Assembly: GCA_943737045.1 (NCBI GenBank)
Contig: CALSFV010000011.1
Coordinates: 434,001 to 498,000 of the forward strand
DNA: 64,000 nucleotides
Direction: 5' to 3'
DNA from: Parapristionchus giblindavisi
Lineage: Eukaryota; Nematoda; Chromadorea; Rhabditida; Diplogasteridae
Shown: in pieces, positions 4,818-57,527 of the stretch
Layout: every line of letters begins with the position of its first letter
How positions within the stretch are numbered: position 1 is the stretch's first letter
Position numbers and translations under genes: made by a program
Notes under the pieces: generated by a model
What the model was told of the DNA's origin: nothing
Databases searched by the model: none
What the model saw: the letters and a program-made list of their open reading frames with translations, nothing else

Positions 4818-4858
4818 GTTGTAACTTTCTTTGTGCAGTGGCGTTATGGCCATTATCT

Positions 4859-23256: not shown

Positions 23257-23475
23257 ACATCTTCCTTTTCCTTTTCAGACGAACTCGTTTCGCACGTTTT
23301 CTATCCCTTACTATATAGTAGTTCATTTTGCCATTTCCCAAAAAGGCCTTTCGTAGAATATTAATAACTCGCTTCAAGCATCACCAATCAAGGCGTTATT
23401 TTTTTAAAGATTGTTGGTAGATGTCCCGACTACCTTTAGCCGGTGACCATATTTATGTACTACAATAAACACAAC

Positions 23476-26400
23476 TTAATTAACAATAAAAACAGCAACA
23501 AATACAAAGATTAATGAGTGTATTGTAGATATAAAAATGGATGATTTTGTAGTAGTTGTTTGTCCCGTTGGTTTGGTGGGAGATGGCGTGATGGGATCCA
23601 CTGGTTTGATATCATTTTTATCAGGAATAGATCTCAATGAGAAAGTTGACGTCATGCCCTCTTGTTGGTAGTAGGCTTGAATCAACTGAAAATTATCTAG
23701 TTATTATCTTGAGAATGTACTGGGGCAATATCACTGTAACGGTCTTACATATTCGCTTTTTATTACCTTTACTTTGGTACCTTTACTACCATTCAACATT
23801 CCCACATATTTTTTGAAAGAAAAAAGTGTGTGTATATGAAATTTACCAATGGATATTTTTCAAATTAGTTATGAAAATACCTTTGTGTTGGTGTATGAGA
23901 GTGTCTTATCCGTGGAACGTTTAATCCTAGAAAATATGATTTTGTTTTATATTAGTAAATGACCAACATTTCCTCCACTCCGTTTGACATATCGGTGAGC
24001 TTCAAGTAACCACTCCCATCCACATTTTGATTGTCAAAGTGAAGTTGGAGCTTAACATTCTTTCCTCTGAAATTATTATTAAATAAATAAATGTCAGAGA
24101 TTTTTGATTTGATTTATAGCACATTTATGTAGATCTCTCGCACTGATGTGCTGTGATGTGCATTGGTCACAATTTCTTACTCCTTGCCATTCTGAGAAAG
24201 TTGAGATAAACAAAGCCAGCGAGAATACAGTAAATATTTTATCTTTTCATTTTTTAAAACTTTTGATTTTTTTATTAAATAACTATGCAGTTCAATCTGT
24301 TTTGCATCATTGTTTAAAAATATCATAAAATATATCAATAAATGGAACTTCTTCGGTTTCTGGCCAATGGCAATATATTAAAGGCATGCTCGAGATAATT
24401 TTACTCTTCGCTCTGACAACGCTCTCTCGCTGACACAGAAAGCGGGAGCGCATTACCAGAGCGGAGAGTTGAAAGTTAGCTGAGGATGTCCCTTTAAAGT
24501 AAATTACGCTACCTGTCAGCTGCAAACTGGAAGAGGGATGCTTGTGTGTATTCGCTCGAACGAAAAACCTTCAACCATTTCATTTCGATAATTACTTTAA
24601 TTTTCCTGAACTGTAAACCTGTGAAAAATTGCATCCTAAGTATCCTTGAGAAGTGATGAAGTTTGGCTGATCCAAGTCCACATTGAAATCTTTAAAGGTA
24701 CTGCTCTCCGCATTGGCAATACTCTCTGACAGACAAAGAAAGCGACAGAGTGTGACCAGAGCGGAGAGTTTTATATTGGCGCAGGGTGAGTCTTTAAATA
24801 TCAATTACGCTATAATCGCGAAAAATACTCACTGTCTCCACTGAATGTTTCAATCTGAACGTTGTACTTTGGATTATCAGGATAGTCAGGGTCTTCGAAT
24901 AACAAAGTAATCATTGGACCATTAACTGGAAACATCACACCCGACAGCTTATCTGGCCATCTAAATCGATTTTCTCTATTGCTTTGTATTTTTGAAAATT
25001 TAAAAAAAATGTCTCACGTCTGATAATATAGCGTGGCACAATCATTCTCATCAGTTTGATATTGAGCCTTGTCATAACCACGAGAGAACGCTGTCAACTT
25101 CGTTTTCTATAAGATTTATTCATTTATTTATCCATCAAGCATATGGTTTGATAGCAGCATTGTCACGCTTTTTCGGAATCTCTAATTCTTTGAAAATTTC
25201 AGGTATGTAGAGAACCTATTACACCCATGATGTGAATTCTATCGGTAGAAAAGTGCTAGAAAAATGAGGAAGTGAGATGTACGCGATGCATGTTCAACAA
25301 TTACTTTGTTAGACACTCTCTCGCCCCTTTATTTTTTTCTTTTCGTGACTTCTGAACGTGACTTTATTAACTCACCCCATCCGTTGCCACTTTGACAGTG
25401 AAAGCACGTTGTCCCATAATCGTGACTACACTCGCTGGTTTCGTATCTCTCTTCATCAAAACAGCATCGTAGATTTCGGCATCATTGAATCGAGCTGAAG
25501 TGATTTTTATGCTGCCATTTAAACGTACATCCCAAACTAATTTGAAACTCTTCGCTATTGTAATGCTCTCTCGCTTTTTTGTCTTCCAGAGGGGGTAGTT
25601 AATTTTGCATTTTTTTGTAAATTAAAATTTGTTTCACTGATCGCTAATCGAGTAATCAAGCTATTATGAGAACATTAAAATAAAATATTAGACTGACGTG
25701 CTCCTCTCTGTACCATATACACGACAACTGGAAAAGTGGCTTGATTGTCATTCTCATTCACAATTGTGAACACTCCCCAATTCTATAATTTGAACTTTGA
25801 TAATTGATCTTTGATCTTTCACTATTCACTCACTCCAGTCGCCAGATATCCTTTATAGTCTTCATGATATTCGTCTTTGTAATCATCGATATCGGAAAAT
25901 CTGAAATTTTTTACTGCAATTAAGTTCCTTTTTTCTGTCGAATAGCTCCATATTTAAAACTAACAATAAAAGTAGTCCAATTCAAGTGAAAGAGCATTTG
26001 ACGAAATGCATTACAGTATATACACCACTTGAAGTATACTTAAAAATCACACTCTACTTTCCTACAGGCAAGTCCACGCATATGCTCTGGACGATTTTAT
26101 CTGTGAATAATTTTTTTAAATATGTTTGCAATATCGATTAGTTAGTTAGTCTGAAAGCTACTAACAAGGGAACCATAATGCATTCCCGTGGCGATATGTC
26201 TAGTGACATATACCATTCGAATCAGTATCCGATTCTGATAGGACACCGTCGATAAGCAATCTCAAATGTTCATGAGCTTCGAGAAAATTGACATTGAAAT
26301 TCGGCTATGTGATTTGGAAATTCCTATGGTATCCTAGACAAACCATCTGGATGGGTTCATTAACTCATCTATCAACTCCCCAAACAAGTGCTTGTGTGGT

Positions 26401-29277
26401 GTAGTGGATAAGGTGGCTGCGTTTCCTTTTGACTGTCATGAGTTCGATCCCCGGCTGCAGCAATAATTTTTTGCGGATTTATTTCTTGTCGAAAGATTGA
26501 ATTTTTTGCTGTTATTATGAAAAGAGAGCTAGAAAAGAGAACATCTTATCAGTGTGAACTTTAACAACAAAAGTTTAAAAAAGAATTTCACATCTCGGGC
26601 ACATAATTAATGAACAGGTAGACGATGAGTTAAAAAATGGAAGCATTTAACGTACTCGCATGATCTTTGATCTTTGAACTCTCATATCTGTTTTTCAGGT
26701 CATTCATTGCTTGACTCATGATGGAGAGGTTAAATTGAACTTTGATTTTTTCATGGCATTATTTTTGCAATCTCCTCCCTCTCCCTCGCCACTCCTCTCA
26801 TACGAGGTCGAGGTCATGCAATGAATGACCTGAGAAACAGATATGAGAGTTCAAAGATCAAAGATCATGCGAGTACGTTAAATGCTTCCATTTTTTTAAC
26901 TCATCGTCTACCTGTTCATTAATTATGTGCCCGAGATGCGAAATTCTTTTTTTTAAATTTTTGTTGTTAAAGTTCACACTGATAAGATGTTCTCTTTTCT
27001 ATCTTTCATAATCACAGCAAACAATTTCAATCTTTCGACAAGAACAAAATCCGCAAAAGATTATTGCTGCAGCGGGGGATCGAACTCATGACAGTCAAAA
27101 GTAAACACAGCCACTTTATCCACTACACCACACAAGCACTTGTTTAGGGAGTTTATAGATGAATTAATGAACCCATCCGGATGGTTTGTGTAGGCAACCA
27201 TAGGAATTTCCAAATCACATAGCCGAATTTCAATGTCAATTTTCTCGAAGCTCATAAACATTTGAGATTGCTTATCGACGGTGTCCTATCAGAATCGGAT
27301 ACTGATTCGAATGGTATATGTCACTAGACATATCGCCACGGGAATGCATTACGGTTCCCTTGTAAGCGTCATATAAACGAAATTATTGGTTCACTTATTG
27401 TTAGTACAGTCTTTTAGGAAATTGAACACGATCAATTTTGCACACTACTTGATTTTAAAATTTCCAACCTCCTCATTTTAATTTATCTAACAAACATGGT
27501 ATATCTTATTAGCTTCATGCATGCTCCAAATTCATCATATAAAAAGATATCAGAAAATGAAATATTAGAAATATATCATTATCATATGAATCTATTTTCA
27601 TAAAAGGCTGTACAGAGTTATAAATTCCCACCACGTTAGTTCAGCCTATGGGCAAGAAACGGTGAATTCCGTTTTCCAACTCTGGAGTTGGTAGTAGGAA
27701 AAGAGATGAAATATAAAGAGTGCGAGGCGGATGCCAGGCGGTTTTGGTGGGATTCATTAGAGAGGGTGTGAGTGCGAGATATCATCCAATGATTCTCTCT
27801 GTCGCACTTTCCAAACACACCACACCGCACACCAAAGTGTTGAGAAAAGTCGCATGAGCATCTAGCATCTCTTTTCCCACGCGAGATGACACGGGGGACA
27901 CGATGGAACACCCTAGCAGGAAAAGAGGATATGTACCTCTGTTGAACTCTTTTTTTTATTGTGCATGGTCATTAGTGAAAAGTTTGCATAGTAATTTGGC
28001 TTTAATTACTGGCCAAAGATTTCTACTTGAACCCAAAAAAGGGGGAAGCGCTCACCTATATATAAATGCATTGTTCTTGGGGTCGATGATGTAGATTCGT
28101 TTAGCCATTTCATAATACATATCCTTATTGTATGAAACATAGACATTGCAACCAGAAGGGCAATGTGTAATGTCCAGCTGAGAAAAAAGGCGGTTAACGG
28201 AGCATTTTTAATTAATTTCGGCTGCGATTTTGACACGAAGGAATGTCTTCAACAGTTGATCGTAAATACAGATGAAAGAAGAATTATTGAAGAATTCATG
28301 TGTATGGGTCCCCAGCACACCCTGACTACTCAGTCGTTGGCGGTAACCATTCCCTCTCAATTGATTTCATGTGTATGGGTCCCCAGCACACCCTGACTAC
28401 TCAGTCGTTGGCGGTAACCATTCCCTCTCAATTGATTTCATGTGTATGGGTCCCCAGCACACCCTGACTACTCAGTCGTTGGCGGTAACCATTCCCTCTC
28501 AATTGATTTCATGTGTATGGGTCCCCAGCATACCCTGACTACTCAGTCGTTGGCGGTAACCATTCCCTCTCAATTGATTTCATGTGTATGGGTCCCCAGC
28601 ACACCCTGACTACTCAGTCGTTGGCGGTAACCATTCCCTCTCAATTGATTGTGTGTTTGATAAAGTATCTACAGTATATTTTATTTATATAATTTGTGCT
28701 CTCCACTCTGGCTATACCATACGGCAACCTTTGTAGCTGAAAATTAAATAGGGTGGGTCGGAAGCAAAAATTAAGAGGGACATTGCCAAGATGAGGGAAT
28801 GGCTTCATCGCCTAAAAGTGCTAGTTAAAAACATAAAATAACTCAAGAAATTGCTAAATATGCGCACTCTCGCCCGATCGCCCTCCTTAGATGCGGATTT
28901 TTTTTTAAATTCACACAATGATACAGGAACAGCCCTCTCATTTGTGATTATTGTGATTATCAGCCTATTCCGATTCTAGTTTCTAGTTTTTACCTTCTTT
29001 TTGTTCACTTTCTCAGCATAAGTGGTTGTTAACCTTGTTTCGTTTACTACATTTTGTGTGCAAAAAATAAGAAATGAAGAGATGGACGGTGTCAATAACT
29101 TACCCGTAGTACTCTGAAATCATATTCATCGTACACAGATGAATATTCAAAGATCGCGAAAGAATCTGGAAAATTATTGTTTTTTTCTCTCGTGTTTTTT
29201 CAAAATCAATTCACAGTAATAATCAAAAACTAACAAACAGTAGTGAATATTGAGAGTAGTGACAGTTCAGCTTTCAT
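23476..29277 (-). CDS. Paralog A: secreted, probably GPI-anchored, CUB-like-looking protein (400 aa, 13 exons)
   Basis: Exons (minus): 29235-29277, 29104-29165, 28056-28177, 25834-25900, 25698-25782, 25376-25494, 25018-25106, 24833-24960, 24619-24689, 24181-24242 (weak acceptor), 23968-24066, 23881-23926 and 23476-23685. Phases agree throughout and the sum is 400 codons. The first exon encodes a hydrophobic signal peptide (MKAELSLLSIF). The body has paired segments such as ITHCPSGCNVYVSY, LTAFSRGYDKA and YYQ..DKLSG, and ends LRSIPDK. A Pro/Thr-rich linker (SPTKPTGQTTTTKSS) and a hydrophobic end (IFVFVAVFIVN) follow, as expected for a GPI signal. It probably acts at the cell surface or in the gut lumen. 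I recognise a nematode secreted family resembling CUB-like proteins but cannot assign a function. Confidence 0.8.
24382..24493. mobile_element. 112-bp TTAA-flanked hairpin MITE
   Basis: TTAA lies on each side, with ends AGGCAT and GTCCCT and a hairpin whose stems are CTCTTCGCTCTG..AACGCTCTCTCGC and its complement. It lies in an intron of paralog A. The tandem copy is at about 31535-31646 in paralog B, so the insertion preceded the duplication. Further members of the family lie at about 24691-24800, 31850-31945, 36687-36805, 39005-39113, 46803-46930, 50760-50845, 54190-54275 and 56650-56745. Confidence 0.8.
26165..27362. mobile_element. Foldback element, 1,198 bp, duplicated TAA
   Basis: The ends are CAAGGGAACCATAATGCATT and a near-complement (one mismatch), with TAA on both sides (26162-26164 and 27363-27365). 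Arms meet near 26765. Each arm carries a tRNA-like stretch (26399-26465 on plus, 27060-27130 on minus) with GTGTAGTGGATAAGGTGG and GAGTTCGATCC boxes. It lies in the third intron of paralog A. Confidence 0.87.
26399..26465 (+). repeat. tRNA-derived sequence inside foldback arm
   Basis: GTGGTGTAGTGGATAAGGTGG (A box) and ATGAGTTCGATCCCC (B box) are about 35 bases apart, and a mirrored copy lies at about 27060-27130. The sequence on either side does not pair as an acceptor stem. It could still recruit RNA polymerase III. Confidence 0.55.
28298..28652. repeat. 71-bp minisatellite, five copies
   Basis: Five head-to-tail copies start at 28298, 28369, 28440, 28511 and 28582. Each contains GTATGGGTCCCCAGCACACC, ACTCAGTCGTTGGCGGTAACC and CCTCTCAATTG. 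The only clear difference is one CACACC/CATACC change in copy four. It lies in the second intron of paralog A. A single diverged relative is at about 55464-55530 in paralog C. No array is seen in paralog B. Confidence 0.95.
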
Positions 29278-30619: not shown

Positions 30620-33600
30620 TCAATAATCAACAAACATAGCAACAAATAGAAAGATTATTGAGTGTATTGTAGATAGAATAGTGGATGATTTTGTAGTTGT
30701 TGTTTCTCCCGTTGGTTTGGTGGGCGACGGTGTGATGGGATCCACTGGTATGATATCATTTTTATCAGGGATAGATCTTAATGAGAAAGTTGACGTCATG
30801 CCCTCTTGTTGGTAGTAGGCTTGTATCAACTGAAAAATATCTAGTTATTACGCTGAATTTACTGGGGCAATATCACTGTAATGGTCTTACATATTTGCTT
30901 TTTATTACCTTTACTTTGGTACCTTTACTACCATTCAACTTTTCCCACATATTCTTTGAAAGAAAAGTATGTATATGAAATTTATCAATGGATATTTTTC
31001 AAAATAGTTATTAAAATACCTTTGTGTTGGTGTATGAGAGTGTCTTATCCGTGGAACGTTTAATCCTAGAAAATATGATTTTGTTTTATATTAGTAAATG
31101 ACCAACGTTTCCTCCACTCCGTTTGACATATCGGTGAGCTTCAAGTAACCACTCCCATCCACATTTTGATTGTCAAAGTGAAGTTGGAGCTTAACATTCT
31201 TTCCTCTGAAATTATTATTAAATAAATACGTGCTAGACATTTTTTATTTGATTTATAGCCGATTTATCTAGATCTCTCGCACTGATGTGCGAGAGATCTA
31301 GATAAATCGGATAAATCTAGATAAATTTCTTACTCCTTGCCATTCTGAGAAAGTTGAGATAAACAAAGCCAGCGAGAATACAGTAAATATTTTATCTTTT
31401 CATTTTTTTAAAACTTTTGATTTTTTTATTAAATAACTATGCAGTTCAATCTGTTTTGCATCATTGTTTAAAAATATCATAAAATATATCAATAAATGGA
31501 ACTTCTTCGGTTTCTGGCCAATGGCAATATATTAAAGACATGCTCGAGATAATTTTACTCTTCGCTCTGACAACGCTCTCTCGCTGACACAGAAAGCGGG
31601 AGAGCATTACCAGAGCGGAGAGTTGAAAGTTAGCTGAGGATGTCCCTTTAAAGTAAATTACGCTACCTGTCAGCTGCAAACTGGAAGAGGGATGCTTGTG
31701 TGTATTCGCTCGAACGAAAAACCTTCAACCATTTCATTTCGATAATTACTTTAATTTTCTGAACTGTAAACCTGTGAAAAATTGCATCCTAAGTATCCTT
31801 GAGAAGTGATGAAGTTTGGCTGATCCAAGTCCACATTGAAATCTTTAAAGGTACTGCTCTACGCATTAGCAATACTCTCTGACAGACAAAGAAAGCGACA
31901 GAGTGTGACCAGAGCGGAGAGTTTTATATTGGCGCAGGGTGAGTCTTTAAATATCAATTACGCTATAATTGCGAAAAATACTCACTGTCTCCACTGAATG
32001 TTTCAATCTGAACGTTGTACTTTGGATTATCAGGATAGTCAGGGTCTTCGAATAACAAAGTAATCATTGGACCATTAACAGGGAACATCACACCCGACAG
32101 CTTATCCGTCCATCTAAATCGATTTTTGTTTATTTTGGAAAAAAAATTAAAGATTTCTCACGTCTGATAATATAGCGTGGCACAATCATTCTCATCAGTT
32201 TGATATTGAGCCTTGTCATAACCACGAGAGAACGCTGTCAACTTCGTTTTCTATAAGATTTATTCATTTATTTATCCATCAAGCATATGGTTTGATAGCA
32301 GCATTGTCACGCTTTTCGGAATCTCTAATGTGATGTTACATTTTCAAAACGGGCGCACGCCGTTATTTGAAATAGTGTTACATTCGGAAACGTTCAGTCA
32401 ACTTTGATTTTGAAGTCTTTTGAGTCCCAAGTGGAAAACCCTTATTGTCAATTGGAACACGGTAAGAAGTTACCGTAACCATGGATCAATAATGGCTGAC
32501 TACGGTAACCTTTTACAGTAATTTCATGATCCATCAGGGTTTTCCAGACCGAAAACACCCAAATGTCACGTTGACGGAGATGTTTCCCGAAACAGAGATA
32601 CGGCGCACAAGTTTTGAAAATGTAACACTGCATAATTCTTCATCTTATCTTATCTTATTCTTTATTCCATCATAATATACGAAACAGGGAAATAGTGACA
32701 TAAAAGGGATTGATGAATGTCCGTCGCTAATATCGGTGAGGGTTTTTGGGTACAGTGGCAGTTTGGGAGCTACTGGCGAATCTTGGAAAAAGGGATAATT
32801 ATATCAGGGGAGATCTTAACTAACCCTGCACGGGATGGGGATGGTGAGGATGCAACTAATTCGGTGGGTAAAGAGTTCCAAATATCTATTACTCTAGATG
32901 CACAGGTAGATAATGTTGAATTACTACGATAAGGGAGAGATATACGGTAAGGATGGGAAAATCTGTGATCGCGGTTAAGAGGTGATACAACAAACAGGTT
33001 TGAATAGTGGTACTCGTAATGGCCATGAATGGTACTATGAATAAATTGTAAATCTCTAATACATCGTCGATATTCAAGGGTCGGCAGATTCAAGTAAGAA
33101 TTTCTTTCGATATGATTGGACGGGGGCAATTTGCAACGGAAGAAAAGCCTACGAGAAAAATTTCTCTGGACATCTTCAAGAGTATTGGTCAACAATTTGG
33201 TGGTTGGATTGAAAATGATAGGTGACGACTCTAGGAGGGGACGAATGTAAACACAATATGCTTTGACGAACAAATGAGGTGAGTTAGAATAAATGGATTT
33301 GAACATCATATTAATCATGGTTCGGGCCTTATTTGAGATAACAGAAATGTGATGGTTAAAGGTAAGATTAGGGGTCATGAAAACACCTAAGTCCTTAATA
33401 ATTGAACTGGAATATAAGGGGTGACCGTTAAGGATATAAGTGGTTCTATTCTTAAGTGGACCAAAGTGCATAACAGTGCATTTAGATGGTGACAAGGTCA
33501 TATTCCATAGGCTGCTCCACTCAGAAATACAATCAATTGCCATCTGAATATCTACAGTACATTTAGGGACAGGGCCATAAACTTTGACATCATCAGCATA

Positions 33601-36600
33601 AATACCGTACTTAATAGATGGAGGAATGATAGAAGATATACCATTAATATACAGTATAAATAGGAGTGGGCCAATACTGGAACCTTGAGGGACACCAGAG
33701 ATAACAGCAGATGGAGGAGAATGAACATTATCAATAACAATAGATTGAGTGCGACCATATAAATATGAACGGAACCAAGACACAATATGGTCAGAGAAAC
33801 CTAGGTTAGAAAGCTTATACAATAATAAACGATGATCAATAGAATCGAAGGCCTTCTGATAATCAAAGAATACAGTGTCTATCGAGTGCTTACAGGAACG
33901 ATATTTCACATAATTTGAATATGTTTCACAAAGTTGGGTTGAAGTAGACCTATAGCTTCTAAAACCAGCTTGATAGGGATCAAAAAGATGGTTTAGCTCG
34001 AGATATTCTACAATACTATCAATTAATATTTTCTCAAAAATATTTGACGAAGTGGCAGTTAAGAGACCGGCTCGGTAAGACTCGAGCATGGTCCGGACAT
34101 TCGCGAGGAATTTCGATCTGGCCATCGATACTTTCATCATAGACACATACCGGGGGGAGACCGATGAAAGTTATAGTGAAAATGCCGTTAGGCTCAAACC
34201 CGGCTCAAATATGTCACATTAAGTAAAAATTTGAAAAATTCATAACTTTTCAATCGTGATAGCTAGGACTTTTATTTCTTTTTATTAGTGAATAACATGT
34301 CAAGCACTCTTACAAACACTGCTGAACATTAATATCATATCGTTCTGAATACGTTTTTTCGTGTCTGATTTTCAGATTTTTTTCCTTCTATCCTCGTTGA
34401 AAGAGATAGCGCAAGAAATTTCATAGTGCATATTGTAGCCCTGACGATTATGCACATGGTGGTCACATTCCCTTGCCCAGCCAGTTTGTCATAAGCCTCG
34501 AGAATTGCAACTGAATGTGAGAAATGTGTAAATTGCAAAAATCAAAAAATAAATTTCTTGAAATTCGCAAGAGTAAGAGGTAGCGGTATTATGTCATTTT
34601 ACTCGTAGTGATGAGCGTACATAGGTAAAATATACAAATAGACTCGGACTACACTTTTAAAAAATTGAGAAAAATAATTATTTCATTTTTATTTTTTCAA
34701 CTCCCACATTCAGTCGACCGTCAATGCACGTTGATTCATAGGGCGGATGGTGGCTGATGCATGTGTGTTTGCAGAAACGACTGCAACGTGAAGAATCGTC
34801 GTTTCGCAGATCTCGAATTTATTTTTTTAATTATCAAACTTGAAAATTTATATGTTTCTTTCATATAAATCGGTTGCAAGGTAGTGTACTGCATCCAAAG
34901 CTGTACCATTTTTATCAGTAGGAGTATACGGTATTGAACTACCGTAATCGTCAGGAATCGCGAACTGATTTTTTTTCAGTCGACCCATTATTTTCCACCA
35001 TGATCCGGGGTTCATGGTTTAGAATGGCTGAGGTCGAAAAATTTATGATGATCACAGACCAAATACTATTTGGCATTATATCAACAGTGGGACAGCTTTT
35101 ATTTTTATGGATACCATACCTCGAATTACCGTACTAGTAATGCACGCACCTGAATTTTCCTAGAATTTCACCACATTATTATAGGATACGGTAGCTAGAT
35201 TACGCTAATTCGAGCTATGGTACCCATAAAAATAAAAGTTGGCCCACTATTGATATAATGCCAAATAGTATTTGGTCTGGGATCGTCATGAATTTTTCGA
35301 CCTCAGCCATTCTCAACCATGAACCCCGGGTCATGGTTGAGAATCATGGGTCGACTGAAAAAAAAATCAGTTCACGATTCCTGGCGATTACGGTAGTTCA
35401 ATACCGTATACTCCTACTGATAAAAATGGTACAGCTTTGGATGCCGTACGCTACCTTCCAACCGATTTATATGAAAGAAACATATAAATATTCAAGTTTG
35501 ATAATTTAAAAAATATATTCGAGATCTGCGAAACGACGATTCTTCACGTTGCAGTCGTTTCTGCAAACGCACATGCAACAGCCACCATCCGCCCTATGAA
35601 TCAACTTGCCTTGAAGGTCGACTGAATGTGGGGGTTGAAAAAATAAAAATAAAATAATGATTTTTCTAAATTTTTTTTAAAATGTAGTCCGAGTCTATTT
35701 GTATATTTTTCCTGTGCACTCGCATTACTACGAGTGAAATGACAAAATAAAGCTTCCTCTTACTCTTGCGAATTTCAAGAAATTTAATTTTCGATTTTTG
35801 CAATTTACACATTTCTCACATTCAGTTGCAATTCTCGAGGCTTATGACAAACTGGCTGGGCAAGGGAATGTGACCACCATGTGCATAATCGTCAGGGCTA
35901 CAATATGCACTATGAAATTTCTTGCGCTATCTCTTTCAACGAGGATAGAAAGAAAAAAATCTGAAAATCAGACACGAAAAACATATTCAGAACGATATGA
36001 TATTAATGTTCAGCAGTGTTTGTAAGAGTGCTTGACATGTTATTCACTAATTAAAAGTAATAAAAGTCCTAGCTATCACGATCGAAAAGATATGAATTTT
36101 TCAATTTTTTACTTAATGTGACATATTTGAGCCGGGTTTGAGCATAAGGGCATTTTTACTATAACTTTCATCGGTCTCCCCCCGGTATGTGTCTATGATG
36201 AAAGTATAGAGGTCCAAAGCGAAAGTCCTCGCGAATGTCCGGAAGGGGGTCAAAATGCTCGAGTCTTACCGAGCCGGTCTCTTAAGGAGATAGGGCGAAA
36301 ATTTGAAATGGAATTATCATTGCCTTTCTTAGGGATCGGCTTTACAAGGGCTATTTTCCACAGATCAGGGACAGTTGATCTGTGGAAAAAAAATTTGTTT
36401 TTTTTAATAATGTGATGTAACACTGCATAATTCTTTGAAAATTTCATGTATGAAAAGAACCTATATTTTGTTAGACACTCTCTCGCTCATTTTTTTTCTT
36501 TTTTTTTCGTGACTTCTGAACGTCACATTATTAGCTTACCCCATCCGTTGCCACTTTGACAGTGAAAGCTCGTTGTCCCATAATCGTGACTACACTCGCT

Positions 36601-39600
36601 GGTTGCGTATCTCTCTTCATCGAAGCAGCATCGTAGATTTCGGCCTCACTGAATCGAGCTGAAAAGAGTTTTATATTGCCATTAAAAGGCACATCCGGAG
36701 CTAATTTTCATAACTCTGGCAACAATCTCATATAGACAAAGAACGTGAGACAGTGTTGAGAGCGGAGAGTTTAAAATTGTAAAGGAGTGTCACTTTAATA
36801 TATTTACTGCTGGTATATGTTAAATCGAAAAGAACAGCTCGAAAAAGGCAGTTAAGTTTTCTCTGAGACACTGATTGATAATCGACTAATCAAGCTACTT
36901 TGCACTGGTAAAATAAAAGGCTCTGTTCTACTTGCGGGGGCTCATGAAAATTGAGGGGGCCCATCAAAATTGAGGGGCCCCATGACAGTTTAGGGGGCCC
37001 ATGAAAATTGAGGGGGCTCATGTTCCTGGTCAGAACTGATCATGCTATTTTCAAAGTTTTTGTTCTGTTATCAGTGTTTGTTCTCTTGTTGTTATCAGTG
37101 TTTGTGTAGTGTGTGGAAGCGGAACGAAGAGAGTTAGAGGTTAGGTGCATCCGCACCTGCCGTTTCGCCTGCAAACAATGGTGGCGGCAAAAGACGCAGC
37201 GATCAGGGAACGAGCAAGGCTGCAAGTGGATCAGTCAAGAAGGCAGGCCGCGGCCGTCCCTCTGGCAAAAAGAATTGAGTGAGCTCGTGTTAATTGAATG
37301 AGCGTTGTGGTCCCGATAAATTTCCTTTCATGTTATCATACGAGTTGAAAAGTTCAAACATTACACAAACACTGATAACAGAACAAAAACTTTGAAAATA
37401 GCATGATCAGTTCTGACCAGGAACATGAGCCCCCTCAATTTTCATGGGCCCCCTAAACTGTCATGGGCCCCCTCAATTTTCATGGGCCCCCTAAACTTTT
37501 TGAGCATTGCTTGAGACAATAGCACGATACCATGAGCCCCCTCAATTTTCATGAGCCCCCTCAATTTTCATGGCCCCCTCAATTTTGATGGGCCCTCTCA
37601 ATTTTCATGAGCCCCCGCAAGTAGAACAGAGCCAAATAAAATATTAAACTGACGTGCTCCTCTCTGTACCATATAAACGACAACTGGAAAGGTTGCTTGC
37701 TTGTCATTCTCATTCATTATAGTGAACACTTCCCAATTCTATAATTTTAACTTTAATCTTTGATGTTTGATCTTTATTTTTCACTCACTCCAGTCGGCAG
37801 ATATCCTTTGTAGCCTTCATGATATTCATCTGTGTAATCGTTGATATCGGAAAATCTGAAAAATTTCACGGCAATTAAGTTGATTTTCCTGTCGCACTTT
37901 CAGTTTATTGGAATGGCACGAATTCTCTCATTGTCAAATCAATTTTGATTTTAAAAAATCGCGCGAATTTGAAAACGTGACTTAAAAATAAACTGCGTAG
38001 AAATTGTGCAAAATGATTTTATGGTTCTTGAATTTAGGCATTCAATAGTGGTGCACACTTATATTTCCAACAAGCAAGACCACGCATGCCCTCTGAACGA
38101 TGTTCTCTGTGTAATAAGTTTTTTGTGGTTTTGATCGGCCATTATTGAAAAGATTGGTCAGTAATTTGGTTTTATAATAATTACTGGGCAAACTTTTCAC
38201 ACCAACTTTAAATAACGGAGAAAGCACTCGCCTATATATAAGGGCAGTGTTTGTGGGATCGACGATGTACTCTGGTATTTTGCCACTTAAAGTCTACTTA
38301 AACTTTCCCACTTTAAGTAGACTTTAAGTAAACTTAAAGTGAGACGTAAGTCTACTTAAAGTGGTGTGGTATACTGTAATGCATTTCGTCAAATGTTCTT
38401 TCACTTAAAGTTTACTTAAAGTCTACTTAAAGTCTGTGACGTAGTTTAAAGGTGGTGTCCGGGGAATATTTTCGTGAACAAACTGTGAAGACAGAAAGAT
38501 AGCAAAAATTATTCTGCATACCTTACATAAATTAGTTTATGCTAATTTAGCTTATTGATCGCTAGAATCGTGAATGAATCATGCTTGATGTACAGGCAAA
38601 GGCGCGAAATTTTGAAAAATGAGAAAGTTCGGCAATAGGGTTCGAACCCGCGACGTTGCGTTTACTAGACAGCGCCTTTACCACTACACCAAGGGATGCA
38701 CGAATGGAAGTTCTAATTTTTTGCATATCATTTAGCACTTGAATAGCCGATATGTTATGTATTTGTATAGACATTCGAGGGCCTCCATCTTTAAGTAGAC
38801 TTTAAGTGGCAAAATACCAGAGTAGATTCGTTTAGCCATTTCATAATACATATCCTTATTGTATGAAACATAGACATTGCAACCCGAAGGGCAATGGGTA
38901 ATGTTTAGCTGAAAAAGAGCGGACCATTTCGAGTTAATTTGGACACTACTATCGAGCCATACTGTTTTTGGCTGCGTGAGTGCAAATCTTAAAAGCACGC
39001 CCGGCCAAATTTGAACCTCTGAACTCTTTCATAGCTCTTTCGCTTCTTTGTCTACGAGAGAGCATTACCAGAGCGGAGAGTATCAAATTAAGTCGAGTGT
39101 ACCCTTAAGACATCCAGTGTTGGGTTTTAATGATTTGTTCGCCTCCAAATGCTAACAAAGAATTAAAAAATGACTCAAGGCCCTAGTTCATTGGATGATA
39201 ATTGTCATTCTATTCTAGCTTCGACTTTCTAGCTTTTTTGTTTAGTTCACTTTGGTTGTTAACTTTGTTTCTCCTTAATATATAGTTTATACTACATGTA
39301 CGTTTTACAAGCTATATCTAAACCGTGCATACATATCACCTATCTACATTGTATTTAATGCTACTCCGCATTTTTAGGGGGTCCAATAATTTGGTCAAAG
39401 TGGGGCCAATAATTTGTCATAAGTTGACTCTCGAATTTGGCTACCAGACAAGCCCCACTTGAAAAGTTGAGCCATTAATTTGGTCAAAATAATGGACCCA
39501 CTACACTTTTCGCTAAACTTTAGTCCAAATTAATGGCTCAACTTTTCAAGTGGGGCCAATAATTTGGTCATAATAATGGCCCCACTGAACTTTTCGCTAA

Positions 39601-42600
39601 ACTTTAGTCCAAATTAATATCTCAACTTTTCAAGTGGGGCCAATAATTTGGCCAATAAATTGGCTCGACAACTAAAAGCTTAGCCATTTATTTGCTTACT
39701 TTTATTCCAGTTCCATTTATATCTACTACGCATTTAAATGTTTTATACATCAATTAACTTCTTTATCCTCAGGACAACAATATGTACATATCAATTACAA
39801 CATGACAATGAAAATAAAACGAGTAATTAACAGCAAATGGTCTTGCGATAAACTTCTTCAGCTTGTTCATCTTTGGCTTCTCATGGGGTACAAATCAGAG
39901 CTGCGAGATACTTCGTATCAACGAATTGAGATTTCCTGAAAACAATAGAATCAATAACAACATGTTTCTAATGATAATTCGTCTCACATATTTTCTTAAG
40001 CAGTGTTCAGAACTTGGAAAATTCAGGAAAAACGGGGAATAATTCGGTTCATAGAACCGTGAGATGGGTACAATTGTGATCAGCATCAATAACACTACGA
40101 TATAACATTATGATCTTTGATCTTTGCTTTACCTCCGCTACATTTTTGCAATGAGAAAAAATCATCCTAGACGAGCTGGAAACATATCGTTTGCCTCCAC
40201 ATGACAAGTATATATCCAACTAGTAATTAACCTTTGATCTTTTCCAACTCTACATATCGGTCTGAAGTCCGTACCATACCGGGAATCATGTCGAACCGAT
40301 GGTTTAAAATGAATTTAACGCTAGAATGTTAACGCTGGGCGTAGTTTTACATCGCCTCTCTCGATACTGTTTACCGACCGCCAAACCTGCCCCCCCCAGA
40401 GACCCAGACCTCTCAACTTGCTGCTAACAATAAGACCCTTGCGACACGCGCACACTTGTCGACGCGATTATGAACTACCGTAATCTACCGTAATCCAGTT
40501 CAGCCGGTTAGATAAAGTGCGATGGGTCAGTTTTCAGTATAAAATGCAGGAATAAACAATATGTGCGTGATATGATTATAACCTATCGTAAACTACCGTA
40601 ACCGAGTTAAACTACCGTAACCGAGTTCAATGTACGGGTTATGAATAGGTTATAATAATATCACTCACGTATCGGCTATTCCGGCAATTTATACTGAAAT
40701 CTGACCCGTCGCACTTGATCTGACCCACTTAACCGGGCTACGGTAGTTCATAATCGCGTGAACGAGTGTGCGCGTGTCGCAATGGTTTTAGCGGCAAGTT
40801 GAGAGGTCTGGGTCTCTGGGGCGCACGTTTGGAGGACGGAAAACAGTATAGAGAGAGGCGATGTAAGACTCCGCCAAGCATTAAAATTCTTGCGTTAAAT
40901 TCATTTTTTTGACATGGTTCCCGGTATGGCACCGACCGATGGAGCTCGCTGCCGATATGTGGCCGAGTTGGAAAAGATCAAAGGTTAAATACTGGTTGGA
41001 TATATACTTGTCATAGGGAGGCCAACGATACACTTCCCGCTTGTTTAGCATGATTTTGAGCGAAATTGTCTAATTGCAAAAGTGTACCGGAGTTAACAAA
41101 GATCAAAGATCAAGATGTGATATCATAGTGTTACTGATATCCATCTCACTGTTCCAGGACCCCGCCGAGCCGAGTTATTCCTCGTTACGGAAATGTCGGA
41201 AATTTCCGCAGGGTTTTCGTTGATTTTCATCTTGAACAGCTCAAAAAAGGTCGTACGATATTGTATGCATTACGATATATTCGAATCAGTAGCAAAATTT
41301 ATAAATAGCCTAATTTAATTTTTTTCCATGAAAGAATCAAGCTAATCTTTTGAAACAATATACATAATTTATCAAGGAATACAACCATGATGTGCGGGTG
41401 TAATTAAATAAGTTTGCTGCTTTTAAAGAAGTTTCATTGTAAAAAAACATAATTTTCGCATATTGAAGAAAAATTTGTAGATATAGATCAAAGTTCAGTA
41501 CTAGAGTAAAAACTTTTGCGAACATCTCTACGATATATAGGAGCTTTGGAAATGCAAGATTTCATTAAAAGAAGCGCAGTGACGAGAGATGAAAGGGAGA
41601 GTAAGTGCCAGATCCATTCAGATTTTTTTTGACTGGAGCACATATGAGGGCGAGAGAAAACGATTGTTTATGTGCACAGCCATGCCTATACTGGAGCCCT
41701 AGGGGAAGTCTCCACTCTCACGATGTTTCAGAAGATCAAAATTTTTCGCAAAAGAAGTACACGTGATCAAAAGCATAATAAATGGGCGCCGACATGAAGA
41801 TGCCCCCTGTAAAATTAGGGATTTTCGAAATTTTGTGGAATGCCCCATGTAAAAATGACGTTTAGGAGAAAGTTATTTAAAAAAAAAGAAAAGTGAAGGC
41901 CCCCTGTAAAATTAACCATTTTTCGTTCGGATGCCCCTGTAGAATCGAGCTCCAGGGGCCGTATGCATGAAAGTCGGCCAACGGTTTGTCGGCGTTCATG
42001 CATACTGCTTCAGGTACCCCGCCCATGTATGAAAAGTACACTTCCATTGCGTGATTATTACACAACAGTAAAATAATTTAATTAAACCAACACATCATTG
42101 ATTTATTCCTTGATGAGTTCCGTGTTATCATTCACCGAAAGATCTATGAAGATGACAAATAGTAGAGCTGAACGAATCGTTTTATCGATCCAATTTCCCC
42201 CGTCCTTTATCACGCGTCCTCTAGTCTCTATCATCTGTCGGCTGTTAGCGTGAGGGACGGCGAATTGGTAGTAGAAGACGCACACCTGACAATGAACATA
42301 GTTAATCGATAAACAATGAACATTCTATAATCAATAACAATATGTGAGATCTATCAAGCAGCAACCCCGCACATACATTTTCGAACACCCACATTGTGAG
42401 TGAGTACTTTTTGTCGATGCGGTCAGTTTTAAGTCTTGAAACCCATCTAGGAATATGCGGGAGATCGAGATTAGTAAGAATAACCCCCATTTCGGGTCAA
42501 TTCCGAGTACTTGAGATGTAGATCGGGTCAGTTTTGTTCCAATTTCAGTTTATAATTCGCAAAAAACAATAGATTGTGGAAAATGTATGACCCGCGGCTT

Positions 42601-43764
42601 TACGCAGACACCAGGGAAAAGGGCATCAATCAAGTCATCAATCAATCGAGAATTAAACTTACAGAGCGAAAAATGACATCACAAGAGCAAAAGTGAAGGG
42701 CTTTCGAAAAGCGGTTTGTCAAGCTCATGTAAATCTTGATATTCATACTCACCAGAGTTGAGTAGTGACTGATACTACAGCTGTTCGTCATGCAGTTCTT
42801 CGCGCTGTGACGGAATGATGATCTTCGGAGGACGACGCTGCACCTTAACCCAAACACTTCGTCTTTTAACTTAAAAGACTTAAATACTTAAAGAATTTAT
42901 GATAACTTAAATACCCTTGATTTCACATAAGTACAAAGGCGCTTACCGTCGTAGGAGAGGCGAATTGAGAAGAATTCATCTTGATAGAGCAGAGATATCC
43001 TTGTAATAAATTAAATTAAAGAAAAAAACAACAATTAGTGAGCACAGCCAATGCAGGAGCGCAAACAGCAACAGTCTACTCAACCAGCAAAATACTTTGA
43101 TAAGTAGAATACAAACAAGAAATGCAACGAAACAACATTATTTAGTTGAAAAACTTCCATAGCGGGTATGCCGACATGACCTAACAAGAAATATTTAGCA
43201 AATATCGCCTTGTACACGCTGAGTTATTCTACGGCTCTCAGTTAAACGGCTCGACATACCGTAGTGGGGCCATTATTTAAGCCAAAAGTTTAGCTCAACT
43301 TTGCGACTAAAATAATAGCCCCACTTCGAACCAAATTATTGGCTAAACTACCAAAATAATGGCTCAACTTTTCACTCTCGACCAAATTATTGGCCCCCCT
43401 AAAAATGCGGAGTAACTTAATCTTGTGTGCATAAATACACAACATAAAAAGTGCACAGCGTAAATGACTTACAGTTGGAACTTTCAAATCATATTCATCG
43501 TACACTGATGATTTTTCAAAAATCGCGATAGAATCTGGAAAAGTATTGATTTTTCTGTTGTTTTCTCAAAATCATGTCATCTTCATGATTCGTTTATTTA
43601 TTTATTGTATGTCCAATAAATATAATGAACAGTGGTGAGATGGATAAGCATATATGTAAAAGAGGTAGATGGATTTTTTTATAAAGTGGTTTATAAGGTT
43701 TAACAATGATTAACAACTAACAAGCAGTGATGAGTATTGAGAGTAGTAACAGTGGAGCTTTCAT
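30620..43764 (-). CDS. Paralog B: tandem duplicate of A, expanded by transposons, exon 3 interrupted
   Basis: Exons (minus), by comparison with A: 43722-43764 (signal peptide MKAPLLLLSIL), about 43481-43542, exon 3 split into about 38823-38909 and 38229-38269, then about 37790-37856, 37654-37738, 36537-36660, 32163-32250, 31978-32105, 31757-31833, 31326-31390, 31107-31205, 31021-31065 and 30620-30829 (stop). All exons are open with the same phases as A. The C-terminus keeps the Pro/Thr linker and hydrophobic GPI-type end. Two things stand out: the MITE at 38270-38822 inside exon 3, and a GC instead of GT donor after exon 3. If the MITE is spliced out the gene can be functional; if not, a stop within the MITE truncates it after about 100 residues. 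The function is as uncertain as for A. Confidence 0.72.
32329..32632. mobile_element. MITE, 304 bp, duplicated TAA
   Basis: The inverted ends TGTGATGTTACATTTTCAAAAC and TGCAGTGTTACATTTTCAAAAC (complement) are flanked by TAA at 32326-32328 and 32633-32635. The matching site in paralog A (about 25185-25200) is empty. It was the first of three nested insertions in this intron. Confidence 0.88.
32641..36414 (-). mobile_element. 5'-truncated LINE with 21-bp target duplication, itself interrupted
   Basis: The minus-strand element is flanked by the 21-bp repeat ATGTAACACTGCATAATTC(TT) at 32620-32640 and 36415-36435. Its 3' end is a GATAAGATAAGATA-type tail next to 32641. About 1.55 kb of the interior is LINE, the rest is the foldback at 34063-36281. 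It lies in the intron of paralog B that paralog A shows without any insertion. Confidence 0.9.
32770..36420 (-). pseudogene. Non-LTR reverse transcriptase, split by a foldback element
   Basis: The upstream part (about 36420-36286) carries VPDLWKIALVKPIPKKG and NFRPISL. The downstream part (34058-32770) carries DPYQAGFRS, FFDYQKAFDSIDH, GVPQGSSIGPLLF, YADDVKVYG and the C-terminal thumb. Together these are the consecutive RT motifs of a jockey/CR1/RTE-like LINE. Removing the foldback and one TTAA leaves the frame continuous. The endonuclease domain is absent because of 5' truncation. The copy is dead but fairly young, since the 1.3-kb frame has no stops. Confidence 0.9.
34063..36281. mobile_element. 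Foldback element, 2,219 bp, TTAA duplication
   Basis: The ends are GAGACCGGCTCGGTAAGACT and its complement, flanked by TTAA at 34059-34062 and 36282-36285. Arms are about 1.1 kb. The core at about 34900-35445 resembles the core of the foldback at 15499-17283 (TACGGTATTGAACTACCGTA, GAATCGCGAACTGATTTTTT). The TTAA duplication fits a piggyBac-type mobiliser. No transposase frame is present. Confidence 0.9.
36919..37633. mobile_element. MITE, 715 bp, 8-bp duplication AAATAAAA
   Basis: The ends are GGCTCTGTTCTACTTGCGGG and its complement, flanked by AAATAAAA at 36911-36918 and 37634-37641. Arms consist of repeated GGGGGCTCATGAAAATTGA units. It lies in an intron of paralog B, and the same site in paralog A (about 25680) is empty. 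The 62-codon frame inside is not considered a gene. Confidence 0.9.
38270..38822. mobile_element. TA-flanked MITE inside coding exon 3 of paralog B (candidate introner)
   Basis: The ends are CTCTGGTATTTTGCCACTTA and its complement, with TA at 38268-38269 and 38823-38824. Paralog A (exon 28056-28177) has the uninterrupted exon with one TA. On the gene's strand the insertion starts CTCTG|GTATTT and ends ATACCAG|AG. A donor at 38817-38816 and an acceptor at 38273-38272 would remove 546 bp and leave nine extra bases in frame. A tRNA-derived SINE occupies its middle. Confidence 0.9.
38455..38790 (-). mobile_element. tRNA-derived SINE, copy 1
   Basis: On the minus strand TTGGTGTAGTGGTAAAGGCG (A box) and GCGGGTTCGAACCC (B box) lie about 35 bases apart, preceded by ACATATCGGCTAT and followed by a tail with TTCACGAAAATATTCC. 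Related copies are at about 44750-44960 (minus, truncated) and 56300-56645 (plus). A partial tail lies at about 50850-50890. Confidence 0.75.
39005..39113. mobile_element. TTAA-type hairpin MITE
   Basis: AATTTGAACCTCTGAACTCTT and AGAGCGGAGAGTATCAAATT form the stem around a GCTCTTTCGC..CTACGAGAGAGC loop. It belongs to the family described at 24382, and lies in an intron of paralog B. Confidence 0.6.
40110..41130. mobile_element. Nested foldback, about 1 kb
   Basis: The flanking arms share AACCTTTGATCTTTTCCAACTC, GGATATATACTTGTCAT and CGCGATTATGAACTACCGTA as inverted copies, meeting near 40610. The outermost bases are GATCTTTGATCTTTG runs, so the exact ends and any duplication are unclear. Confidence 0.7.
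42103..42979 (-). CDS. Putative cargo gene fragment inside the 4-kb TIR element
   Basis: Possible exons are 42947-42979 (MNSSQFASPTT, good GTAAGC donor), an uncertain one near 42750-42850, about 42366-42480 ending WVFEN before GTATGT, and 42103-42291, which opens after TTGTCAG with VCVFYYQFAVPHANSR and ends FVIFIDLSVNDNTELIKE before the stop. The last junction keeps phase 0. I do not recognise the protein. Splice-like boundaries inside a transposon suggest a captured host gene or part of a transposon gene, but the model is incomplete. Confidence 0.35.
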
Positions 43765-53683: not shown

Positions 53684-55790
53684 TCAATTAGGAATGGATC
53701 TAATCGCGAAAGTGGAGGGGAATTGACCAGTAGTGTAGCTGGCGCTGATAAGCTGAAATATATATTTAGTAGTTCAATATTTCTATTTTAAAATTTAAAA
53801 GGTTAAAATATTTTACTTACCTTCGTGTTTGTATATGAAATGGCCATCTCAGTGGATCTTGTAATACTGAAATATAATGATTGCGTAGAAATTAAAGGCA
53901 CGGTAATTTGAAACTCTCCGCTCTGGCAAAGCTCTCCCGCTTTCTCTGTTCACGAGAGAGTGTTGCCAGAGTGGAGAGTTTCAAATTAGCTCAGGATGTC
54001 CAAAAAAGTGAAGAAAAATATTTGAGTTCTCAAAACATTCTACAGTCTCTCATTGGCAGAGGAGCAGATTAATAATGAGTAAAAATATTTCTTTGCTTTC
54101 ATCTCGAGAAAAACTACTTTGAATTCGGCTAACTTTCCCGAATGTCATGACTATAAAATCAAAACAGGATAATATTTGTCAGTACTGTAACTTTTTTGGT
54201 CACAATCTCTCGAAGACAAAGTAAGAGAGAGAGAGAGATTATGGCAAGAACGGAGAGCTTCAAATTTATATTCTATTCTTTTAAATTCACATCCGAGCTA
54301 ATTTTCGATACTCTCCTCCCTGGCAATGCTCTATCGTAGATAAATAAAGCGAGATAGCATGGCTACAACGGAGAGTTTCAAAATAAGCTGTGGCTTTGAT
54401 GATGTATCTTACTCTTTGGCGAAATTACTGGTGACATCCAATAGATGGAGAGCTCCACTGTTGTCCTTGTTCATATTGTCGAAGCGCACCTTCAACTGAA
54501 CGGTCTTGGGCCTAAATTTTATTTAAAATATAATTTTAAATTTATTTTAATATTTAAACGATTACTTGTCACTGCTGAATTGGAATGTTGCTGCTGGAGA
54601 ATATTTTGACGAACGGAAGGACTGAAATATATGTAGTGATTAAATATGTCAACCAACGACAAATTTTCCTACAATAATTTAGCTCAAAAAGATGATACTT
54701 TAGAACGAGAGAGCGCGACAAGAGCGGAGAGTTACAAAGTAACTCGGGGTGCCATTTTTATTATACAATATCTATGCATATACATTTGTAGCGTTGCATC
54801 CATAGTATCCCTGAGACGTGAAGAAGTTGGCCTGCTCCAATTTGATATCGGAACCTTCAAGATGTTTTATTTTTTCAATTACAAAAATAATATTAAAATA
54901 CTGTAATCACATAATTGTGAGTTCAAATATTGGTGTAAACTTACTGCTAGTCAGAGACGATTCAATCTTGACATTATACGTAGGTGTATTAGGTGAGTCT
55001 GGCCTCTCGAATAGCAAAGTGATCATTGGACCATTAATATTGAAGGTCACTTCGCCCATTTTTTCTGGGAATCTGAAATTAATTTCGTTTTAAATTTAAA
55101 TTTTGAAAAAAAACCTCACTCTTGCATGTAGAGCACTGCACAATCACTATCTTCATTCTGGAAGTATGCCTTGTCGTATCCACGGGAGAACACGGTCAGC
55201 TTCGTATACTGTAAAAAGACTTAAGTTGAATATTTTTGGGATATCCGACTAGAACGTCTTCAATATTTTATCAGCATAGGCATCCATGAATGCTGAGAAA
55301 TCATTTTTCCGGCAAACGTGTCGTCACAACCGTAGACGGAGGTGTTTGCCAGAGATCCCCTCTACGCTTGGGACGTCACGTATGCCGGCAAACGGTTTGT
55401 CAATGTTCATGTATGGCCGCAAAAGAAGATGAGCGAATAATTATTTAAGATATAAGTACCGCTTGTCAGCACGCCCAGACTAATCAGTCGTTTAGTGGCA
55501 GCCATTCCTTCCCAATTGGTTTTTGCTTGATCTCATTTTTCATTTCATTTCATTTATAACACATTTATCAAGAGTTCGCATAGACAAGGGCTCTGACAAA
55601 TGCCCTTGTCTATGCGAGATAAAGGCCATTAAATTATTTTTAAAAATTTAAAATCCGACTGACCCCATCAGTGGAGACCTTAACGGATGCTGCGTGATGA
55701 TTGAGGATGGTTATGGCTGCCTTCGCTGGTTTGACTATTCTCTGTAGGGATGAGGCATCGTACACCTCGGCAGCGTTGAATCCCGCTGCA

Positions 55791-55825
<35 letters not shown>

Positions 55826-55841
55826 ATAAATAAATAAATAA

Positions 55842-55924
<83 letters not shown>

Positions 55925-57527
55925 GTTTTTATTATTATATTTAATTAATTAATTAGAATACCCGATCCTCTGTTGACAATATAGAAGACGACAGGGAAGC
56001 AAGAAAGATCTGCATTTTCGTTGACAACGGAAAAGGATGGCCAGTTCTTGAAATAAATAAGCGGCATTTTTTTTAATGTGCATATGCATGAAACGAGACA
56101 AATATTGATAACAAGAGAAAAAGATGTCAAAAAAATGAGTCGGCGATGATTCTATTTGAACGTCGAAAATATTTATTATTCTATTTGATTTAGAAGGATG
56201 TTCAAAATTAATCTCATTTATTCGATATCTTATTAATTCATCTCGTGAAACTTATCAGAACGTATAAGTTTGAATGAACTCCAATAGCTGATTTTAATGA
56301 TATAGGCCTTCGAATGTTTATGCAAATGCGTAACATATCGGTTATGAATGTGATAAGTAGTACACAAGAAATTATCATTCCCATTCATCAATCCTTTAGC
56401 GTAGTGGTAAAAGTGTTGACTAGTTATCGTAACGTTGCGGGTTCAAAACCTTCTTATTTTCAAAATTTTGCGCCTTTGCCTGTGCTATCAAGCATGACTC
56501 ATTCATGGTTATTGCTTTCAATAAATTAGCATAAAATAGCTGAATTAGCATAAAATAATATATGCATGGTATGCAGAATAACTTTTGTTAACTTTCTGGC
56601 TTCACAGATTGTTCACGAAAATATTCGTTGGAAAATATTCGTTTTCTTCACCTATAAACTTTCCGCTCCTCTCTCTCACTCTCTCACTTTCTGAGTCTGT
56701 GGGAGAGTGTGGCCAGAGTGAAGAATCGAATTTGCTTGGGTTATGTGTCTAATATTCATGCCGATATGTCTTATTGTTGAATCCAGAGTGAACTTACTCC
56801 AATGGGTAGATATCCCTTCTCATTCGGATCATAATCACCCTTAATCTGACTGATCTCGGCGAATCTGCAAAATTATTGATCAACTTCATTTTCGGGCCAT
56901 CGTTGATTCGAAAAAATATTTATTTCTGGTCGAAAAGGTGGTACAATGAATTTCACTTACGACCATTTGCGTGTAGAATCATTGGGATCAACGACGTAGA
57001 TGTTCTTTGCCAAAGGAAGGTAAGAAGAATCGAAGGTGATGTAGAGATTACCACCATAAGGACACTCTGTTATGCTCACCTAAAATATTTAAAATGATCC
57101 AAACAGTGGGTGGGTATGGTCTCGGAACAAGGAGATTTGGGATACCAGACATTATTGTTATATTTTAAATCTGATGCTGTAGCTTGAAAATGAAGTTATT
57201 ACGTTTTGAAAAAAAATCATAGATGCTATACTATATACAGGCAGTTTAACAAAATCAAAATGTTTTAAATGAATTAAGATCTACTAACACTTTTGAATCC
57301 ATTGAAATCGTACTGATCATAGAGAGTGGATTTCTCGAATGTGGCATAGCCATCTGAAAATTAATTTAATTTCTAACAATTTTTGATTTGTTTCCAATTA
57401 TCGTTGATGAAAATTACCCGTGGCATAATATAAAAGTGGAAGATCATAAATTGCTTCAACTCTTGCAATTTTAGGACAACTTACAAGCAGACACTACAAT
57501 GCAGAGAAGTATGAAGAAGCCACGCAT
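53684..57527 (-). CDS. Paralog C: secreted CUB-like-looking protein, 352 aa, 13 exons, no anchor tail
   Basis: Exons (minus): 57485-57527, 57289-57353, 56961-57079, 56798-56864, 55962-56046, 55664-55785, 55120-55208, 54945-55072, 54784-54854, 54566-54621, 54413-54511, 53821-53866 and 53684-53752 (TGA). Phases agree and the exon sizes mirror paralogs A and B almost exactly. A signal peptide (MRGFFILLCIVVSA) is followed by DGYATFEKSTLYDQYDF, ITECPYGGNLYITF, the KLTVFSRGYDKAYF segment and a C-terminal end at FAIRSIPN. Unlike A and B it stops there, without the Pro/Thr linker and hydrophobic GPI-type tail, so it is predicted to be freely secreted. Introns hold a long (ATT)n tract and a SINE. Function unknown. 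Confidence 0.8.
53896..54004. mobile_element. TTAA-type hairpin MITE
   Basis: TTAA precedes AGGCACGG. The stem is AATTTGAAACTCTCCGCTCTGG..GCTCTCCCGC paired with its complement ending GAGCTCAGGATGTCC-like bases. The right TTAA is lost. It lies in an intron of paralog C together with two more copies at about 54190-54275 and 54280-54400. Confidence 0.75.
54280..54400. mobile_element. TTAA-type hairpin MITE
   Basis: TTTAAATTCACATCCGAGC at the left, then a GATACTCTCC..GGCAATGC stem and its mirrored arm, ending AAGCTGTGGCTTTGATG. It is a diverged copy in the same intron of paralog C. Confidence 0.65.
55793..55923. repeat. (ATT)n / (AAAT)n microsatellite
   Basis: About 130 bases of TTATTATTA interrupted once by AAATAAATAAATAA. 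It lies in the intron between exons 55962-56046 and 55664-55785 of paralog C, starting only a few bases from the CTGCAG acceptor. The acceptor is still usable. Confidence 0.95.
56300..56645 (+). mobile_element. tRNA-derived SINE, copy 3
   Basis: GCGTAACATATCGGTTATG leads to TTTAGCGTAGTGGTAAAAG (A box) and TTGCGGGTTCAAAACC (B box). A tail follows with GCCTTTGCCTGTGCTATCAAG and GTTCACGAAAATATTCG, which is shared with the other copies in the same order. It lies in an intron of paralog C. Confidence 0.75.

Follow-up and report, generated by a model that had tools for sequence, protein, structure and literature searches.

Exon 3 of one of three paralogous genes in the 64,000-nucleotide stretch of Parapristionchus giblindavisi DNA analyzed here (the window) is split by a transposable element, and the inverted ends of that element place a GT and an AG where splicing could remove it. 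Does this element act as an intron, and does the family to which it belongs generate introns, as introners do? The nematode origin of the DNA is supported by 19 matches in this assembly to the TTR-52 family, which is not known outside nematodes and was matched in 0 of 14 control genomes. The exons of the three paralogs, A, B, and C, were placed by aligning them with one another. Gene B (30620..43764, minus strand), the interrupted copy, has 13 exons and, by eye, a signal-peptide-like start and a hydrophobic C-terminus. Paralog A (23476..29277, minus strand) also has 13 exons, equal to those of B in phase throughout and in length everywhere except exon 3, which runs uninterrupted in A (28177-28056) and would be nine bases longer in B with the insert spliced out; B would then have 401 codons and a stop, compared with 398 codons in A. 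The diverged paralog C (53684..57079, minus strand), modelled for exons 3–13, has the same phases and identical lengths in exons 4, 5, and 7–12. Exon 3 of C, again uninterrupted, lacks one codon, exon 6 has one extra, and the last exon is shorter too. The expectation that the other twelve exons of B would be open with conserved phases was borne out by the alignment with A. Pfam gave no match for the A protein and one match only, below the cut-off (E 0.2), for the C protein. Across exons 3–13, dN/dS between A and B was 0.31 (dN 0.036, dS 0.119), and most of the A–B divergence time predates the insertion. A and B are also 94% identical over the 3′ half, introns included (23467-25186 vs 30612-32329), and their dS is 0.211 in exons 3–6 vs 0.073 in exons 7–13; together these observations suggest gene conversion or a later exchange.

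The element occupies 38270-38822 (553 bp) and divides exon 3 of B into a 5′ part (38818..38908, minus strand), whose last bases, CTCTG, precede the candidate donor GTATTT, and a 3′ part (38232..38271, minus strand), after which comes a GC donor (AG|GCGAGT) in place of the AG|GTGAGC of A. Its own ends form a perfect inverted repeat of 33 nt, and with the flanking bases included, the arms (38265-38302 and 38790-38827) are 38 nt long and 97% identical. A TA target duplication lies on either side, at 38268-38269 and 38823-38824. By blastn, A passes through the insertion point without interruption (A 28091-28185 against B 38822-38916, 94.7%; A 27967-28093 against B 38137-38269, 73.9%), and in the exon alignment, C does so as well. 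The original prediction, of a TA-flanked MITE in exon 3 of B opposite an intact exon in A, was therefore confirmed by blastn and by the sequence itself, and an insertion absent from the homologous genes A and C is what one looks for in an introner. The predicted extent of the MITE was right as to its inverted ends and its TA, whereas 345 of the 553 bases proved to be a separate repeat nested inside it, leaving a MITE of 180 + 28 bases, or 208 bp.

This nested repeat (38450..38794) is bounded by TTAA and has a stretch that resembles a tRNA by eye (GGTTCGAACCC), in which neither ARAGORN nor an Rfam gathering scan matched a tRNA; its appearance is that of a TTAA-type MITE with tRNA sequence inside. 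It is present in two of the 85 MITE copies that we read, that of B and one other (L037), in opposite orientations. The repeat is abundant, with further copies at L002-L020; the whole 563-base query drew 4577 first-look candidates, of which 40 were scored.

We then considered the MITE family as a whole. Searching the 251.4-Mb assembly with a 21-base end pattern, with at most two mismatches, returned 763 forward and 771 reverse matches (1534 in total), with 0 and 0 for a reversed control pattern. At two ends per element, this corresponds to ~767 elements. A 40-base left-end pattern, with at most three mismatches, matched 587 times. We read 85 distinct copies with their flanks, comprising 15 obtained through the 21-base pattern, 15 through the 40-base pattern, 54 further copies, and the copy in B. 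The length was 208 bp in 74 of the 85. The 208-bp consensus has perfect terminal inverted repeats of 35 nt and stops in all six frames, and is thus non-coding. An identical 2-bp target duplication flanked 80 of the 85 copies, so that the duplication is constant in length. Its sequence varied: 14 dinucleotides occurred among the 80 matching pairs, with TA the commonest (32/80) and AT found once (1/80), so the TA flanks first described are true of the copy in B and, across the family, merely the most frequent kind. Ordinary MITEs are short and non-coding, with inverted ends and a short target duplication, and occur as hundreds of near-identical copies. The family in B has all of these features and differs in that its 2-bp duplications vary widely in sequence, TA being preferred. 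As Tc1/mariner elements duplicate TA, which accounts for just 32 of the 80 matching pairs here, we rejected that name. ISL2EU was rejected likewise, since its text-described target duplication is AT (PMC4482050), seen in 1 of 80 pairs.

The copies read are young. Among 83 copies of 195-212 bases aligned to a consensus, with gaps uncounted, the mean was 1.0 mismatch in 208, and 33 had none; the copy in B showed 0 mismatches over its 208 MITE bases relative to the consensus of these 83 other copies. The sample is not random and is biased toward young copies, because most were taken from the exact-match list; the 40-base left end is exact in 80 of the 83, which come mostly from that list and from low-numbered contigs. 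Recounted outside the 40-base left end, divergence was 0.98 mismatches in 168 bases, or 0.58%. Divergences this low exclude an old insertion in B. Two MITE ends were also observed 2.8 kb apart (G000:C5:1715482-1718277), possibly marking a longer or autonomous relative.

The splice sites proposed for the element were then examined. On the strand of the gene, the terminal word of the MITE supplies a candidate donor, CTCTG|GTATTT, and, from the opposite end, a candidate acceptor, ATACCAG|AG, as predicted; together they define a candidate GT...AG intron of 546 nt (38272..38817, minus strand). Joining 38818 to 38271 would add CTCTGAG and the second TA, nine in-frame bases encoding S-E-Y, for a predicted product of KRIY-SEY-IVDP across the junction, while unspliced read-through of the element meets a stop; both halves of this claim agreed with the sequence. 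The ends being inverted and identical, any intact copy presents the same GT/AG pair on both strands, and this part of the prediction was likewise correct. Of the three codon phases, one brings a TGA into frame within the nine added bases, and an exon copy would therefore be tolerated in the other two. Scored with a weight matrix built from A and C, whose 22 donors and 23 acceptors served both for training and for comparison, the MITE donor reached 3.8, low within the native range (2.7-11.1) and above 4 of the 22 native donors; GTATTT is also the native exon-12 donor in both A and B. The MITE acceptor, at 1.05, fell short of every one of the 23 native acceptors in A and C (3.8-13.1). Of the 3480 AGs on that strand of the window, 22% score at least as high, and several AGs within the element itself outscore the candidate. 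When folded, the 208-bp unit gave -103 to -104 kcal/mol and 552 nt of the copy in B gave -182, with candidate donor and acceptor both lying in the terminal hairpin stem. Among 20,000 random 40-mers from the window treated as terminal repeats, 7.2% carried an in-frame GT/AG within their first 12 bases, and a genome rich in MITE families would be expected to hold some with such a pair.

Taken together, this evidence makes it probable that the MITE inserted recently and either disrupts B or is removed no more than leakily. A copy of a young, homogeneous 208-bp family would have jumped into exon 3 by cut-and-paste, making the 2-bp target duplication as it inserted, and the TTAA-type repeat would have landed inside the MITE afterwards, which is the order of insertion that we infer. 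The GT and AG at the ends are most probably incidental, a consequence of the terminal word CTCTGGTA/TACCAGAG. The GC donor after exon 3 of B also favors this reading; against it stand the 13 open exons of B with an A–B dN/dS of 0.31, a donor above some native ones, and an in-frame product in a phase that avoids the stop. The function of B is probably lost or reduced by the insertion, and at best some of its transcripts may be rescued through leaky use of these sites or of cryptic sites nearby. Such rescue would have a parallel in Tc1, which Rushforth and Anderson reportedly found in 1996 to be spliced out of C. elegans pre-mRNAs, in experiments said to show the use of cryptic and often imprecise sites. 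In both cases, a nematode DNA transposon lies in an exon, with candidate removal near the ends of the MITE and reported splicing near the ends of Tc1. Unlike the MITE, Tc1 is by these accounts autonomous and larger, and its splicing is an experimental result.

The same Tc1 precedent can be read in favor of a one-off intron gain, in which the copy in B is efficiently spliced from 38818 to 38271 and B works with three extra residues, the family as such giving no introns. We regard this as unlikely, though it accounts for several of the observations: the GT/AG pair is in frame and in an allowed codon phase, the remaining exons are open with conserved phases, and the donor lies in the native range with a GTATTT that A and B already use. 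Against it are an acceptor weaker than each of the 23 native ones in A and C and the placing of both sites in a long stem. The open frame of B, which had been read as expected of a gene that still works, counts for little here, as an insertion so young (0/208; 0.58%) would be expected to leave the exons largely open whether or not it is removed. Were B dead since the insertion, the chance of no disabling hit would be 56%, 31%, or 3% at divergences of 0.24%, 0.48%, or 1.44%, in a rough model whose rates are assumed rather than measured. The intactness of B thus leans somewhat toward function, weakly at the likely ages and strongly only near the upper age; we rejected it as strong evidence of splicing, and a frame that stays open on both sides of a young insert is no proof that the insert is spliced.

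The insertion might instead have come later than the onset of decay, with B already decaying and the MITE landing in a pseudogene. This reading, which we consider improbable, draws on the GC that replaces GT in the donor after exon 3, a change found in B only. GC-AG introns are functional elsewhere, however, and the other exons of B remain open and in phase. The A–B dN/dS of 0.31 also points away from prior decay, as does the placing of the 19 amino-acid changes that separate A from B where C is present, 5 of them on B, 3 on A, and 11 unplaceable.

An introner family in the full sense should show copies in the exons of other genes. The collection of family copies that had been proposed as a check reached 85 of the ~767; of these, only the copy in B could be placed in a host exon, with an exon test that is weak. 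For this test, each insertion site, with the element removed, was rated by a codon score trained on A and C, and points from the same loci, which overlap, served as controls. A score of at least 4 was reached by 9/85 copies and 50/371 control points (Fisher p 0.59), at least 6 by 2/85 copies (one being B) and 23/371 controls (Fisher p 0.19), and at least 8 by 0/85 copies and 14/371 controls (Fisher p 0.08). With a score trained on A only, a threshold of 6 was passed by 9% of C-exon points vs 11% of other window points, so that thresholds 6 and 8 hardly discriminate; at 4, it was passed by 54% of 107 C-exon points but by 22% of 406 others. At this lower threshold, 5/85 copies passed the A-only score vs 22% of the 406 window points outside A–C (p 0.0002), a comparison in which the insertion sites are AT-rich by choice, because the MITE prefers TA. 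Among the 85 copies, this poorly discriminating score did not suggest any excess of insertions in coding-like sequence, and score and Pfam together, a weak test, showed no second copy in a host exon. When 10 reading frames crossing the emptied junctions of 9 copies were searched against Pfam, one (L092) matched DDE_3, a transposase-like piece, below the cut-off (E 0.0004), along with three weaker matches; a frame from another copy (L087) had one match below the cut-off (E 0.004). Among a further 99 cross-junction frames from 54 copies, L087 included, inspected by eye, one (L081) resembled a mariner-like protein.

It is very unlikely that copies of this family make introns in many genes and in either orientation, since only the copy in B among the 85 read was shown in a host exon and coding-like sites were no commoner among the copies than among the controls, even granting the low power of the exon test, the ~767 copies, identical inverted ends that offer GT and AG both ways, and the analogue in Aureococcus, whose introner carries both splice sites and adds 12 bases as described in the text of PMC9860276. 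With a weak acceptor, a young insertion, and no other copy among the 85 shown in an exon, the introner claim of the original prediction went unsupported, and we hold it highly doubtful that nematode MITE ends encoding a donor and an acceptor are now generating introns, with exon 3 of B caught near the birth of one.

Published introners, as described by Gozashti et al. 2022 (PMC9860276), include some with inverted ends; they carry splice sites in various ways and can add codons. The element in B resembles these in its inverted ends, its target duplication, its element-borne candidate splice sites, and the few codons that it would add. It differs in number and in kind of evidence, as that study describes keeping only families with at least four similar introns, filtering out paralogous genes, and seeking RNA-seq data for its species (PMC9860276), whereas here there is one candidate, known from sequence alone. 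The term 'nematod' is absent from the main text of PMC9860276, and in the text of a nematode intron survey, source sequences for gained Caenorhabditis introns were not found (PMC9169325). Introners of this type had been thought new to nematodes, and among the papers listed by searches of the open-access literature, no nematode introner family appeared. If the element were spliced, it would represent an intron gain that had not yet begun to decay, beside a paralog whose site is empty and with hundreds of almost identical relatives, so that the role of the ends in splicing would be directly testable. On present evidence, a transposon has recently inserted into one member of a set of duplicated genes.

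Other repeats occur within and around these genes. An inverted-repeat element of ~100 bp lies in introns of A, B, and C (24404-24511, 24704-24812, 31558-31665, 31857-31965, 39055-39108, 53904-54001, and 54311-54393) and was considered as a second introner. Two introns of A that contain it (24832-24690 and 24512-24067) share their positions with introns of C (54944-54855 and 54565-54512) in which it was not found; the element therefore entered existing introns there, and we rejected it as an introner. Within 32773-36412, in the intron that separates exons 6 and 7 of B, a 466-aa open frame (32773-34170, minus strand) that by eye resembles a retroelement reverse transcriptase adjoins a large inverted repeat. 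The second intron of A has a 71-base tandem repeat (28291-28733). Finally, translated stretches within 18-813 and 4084-4930 of the window are 100% identical and ~4066 bases apart, which points either to duplication in the very recent past or to an effect of assembly.
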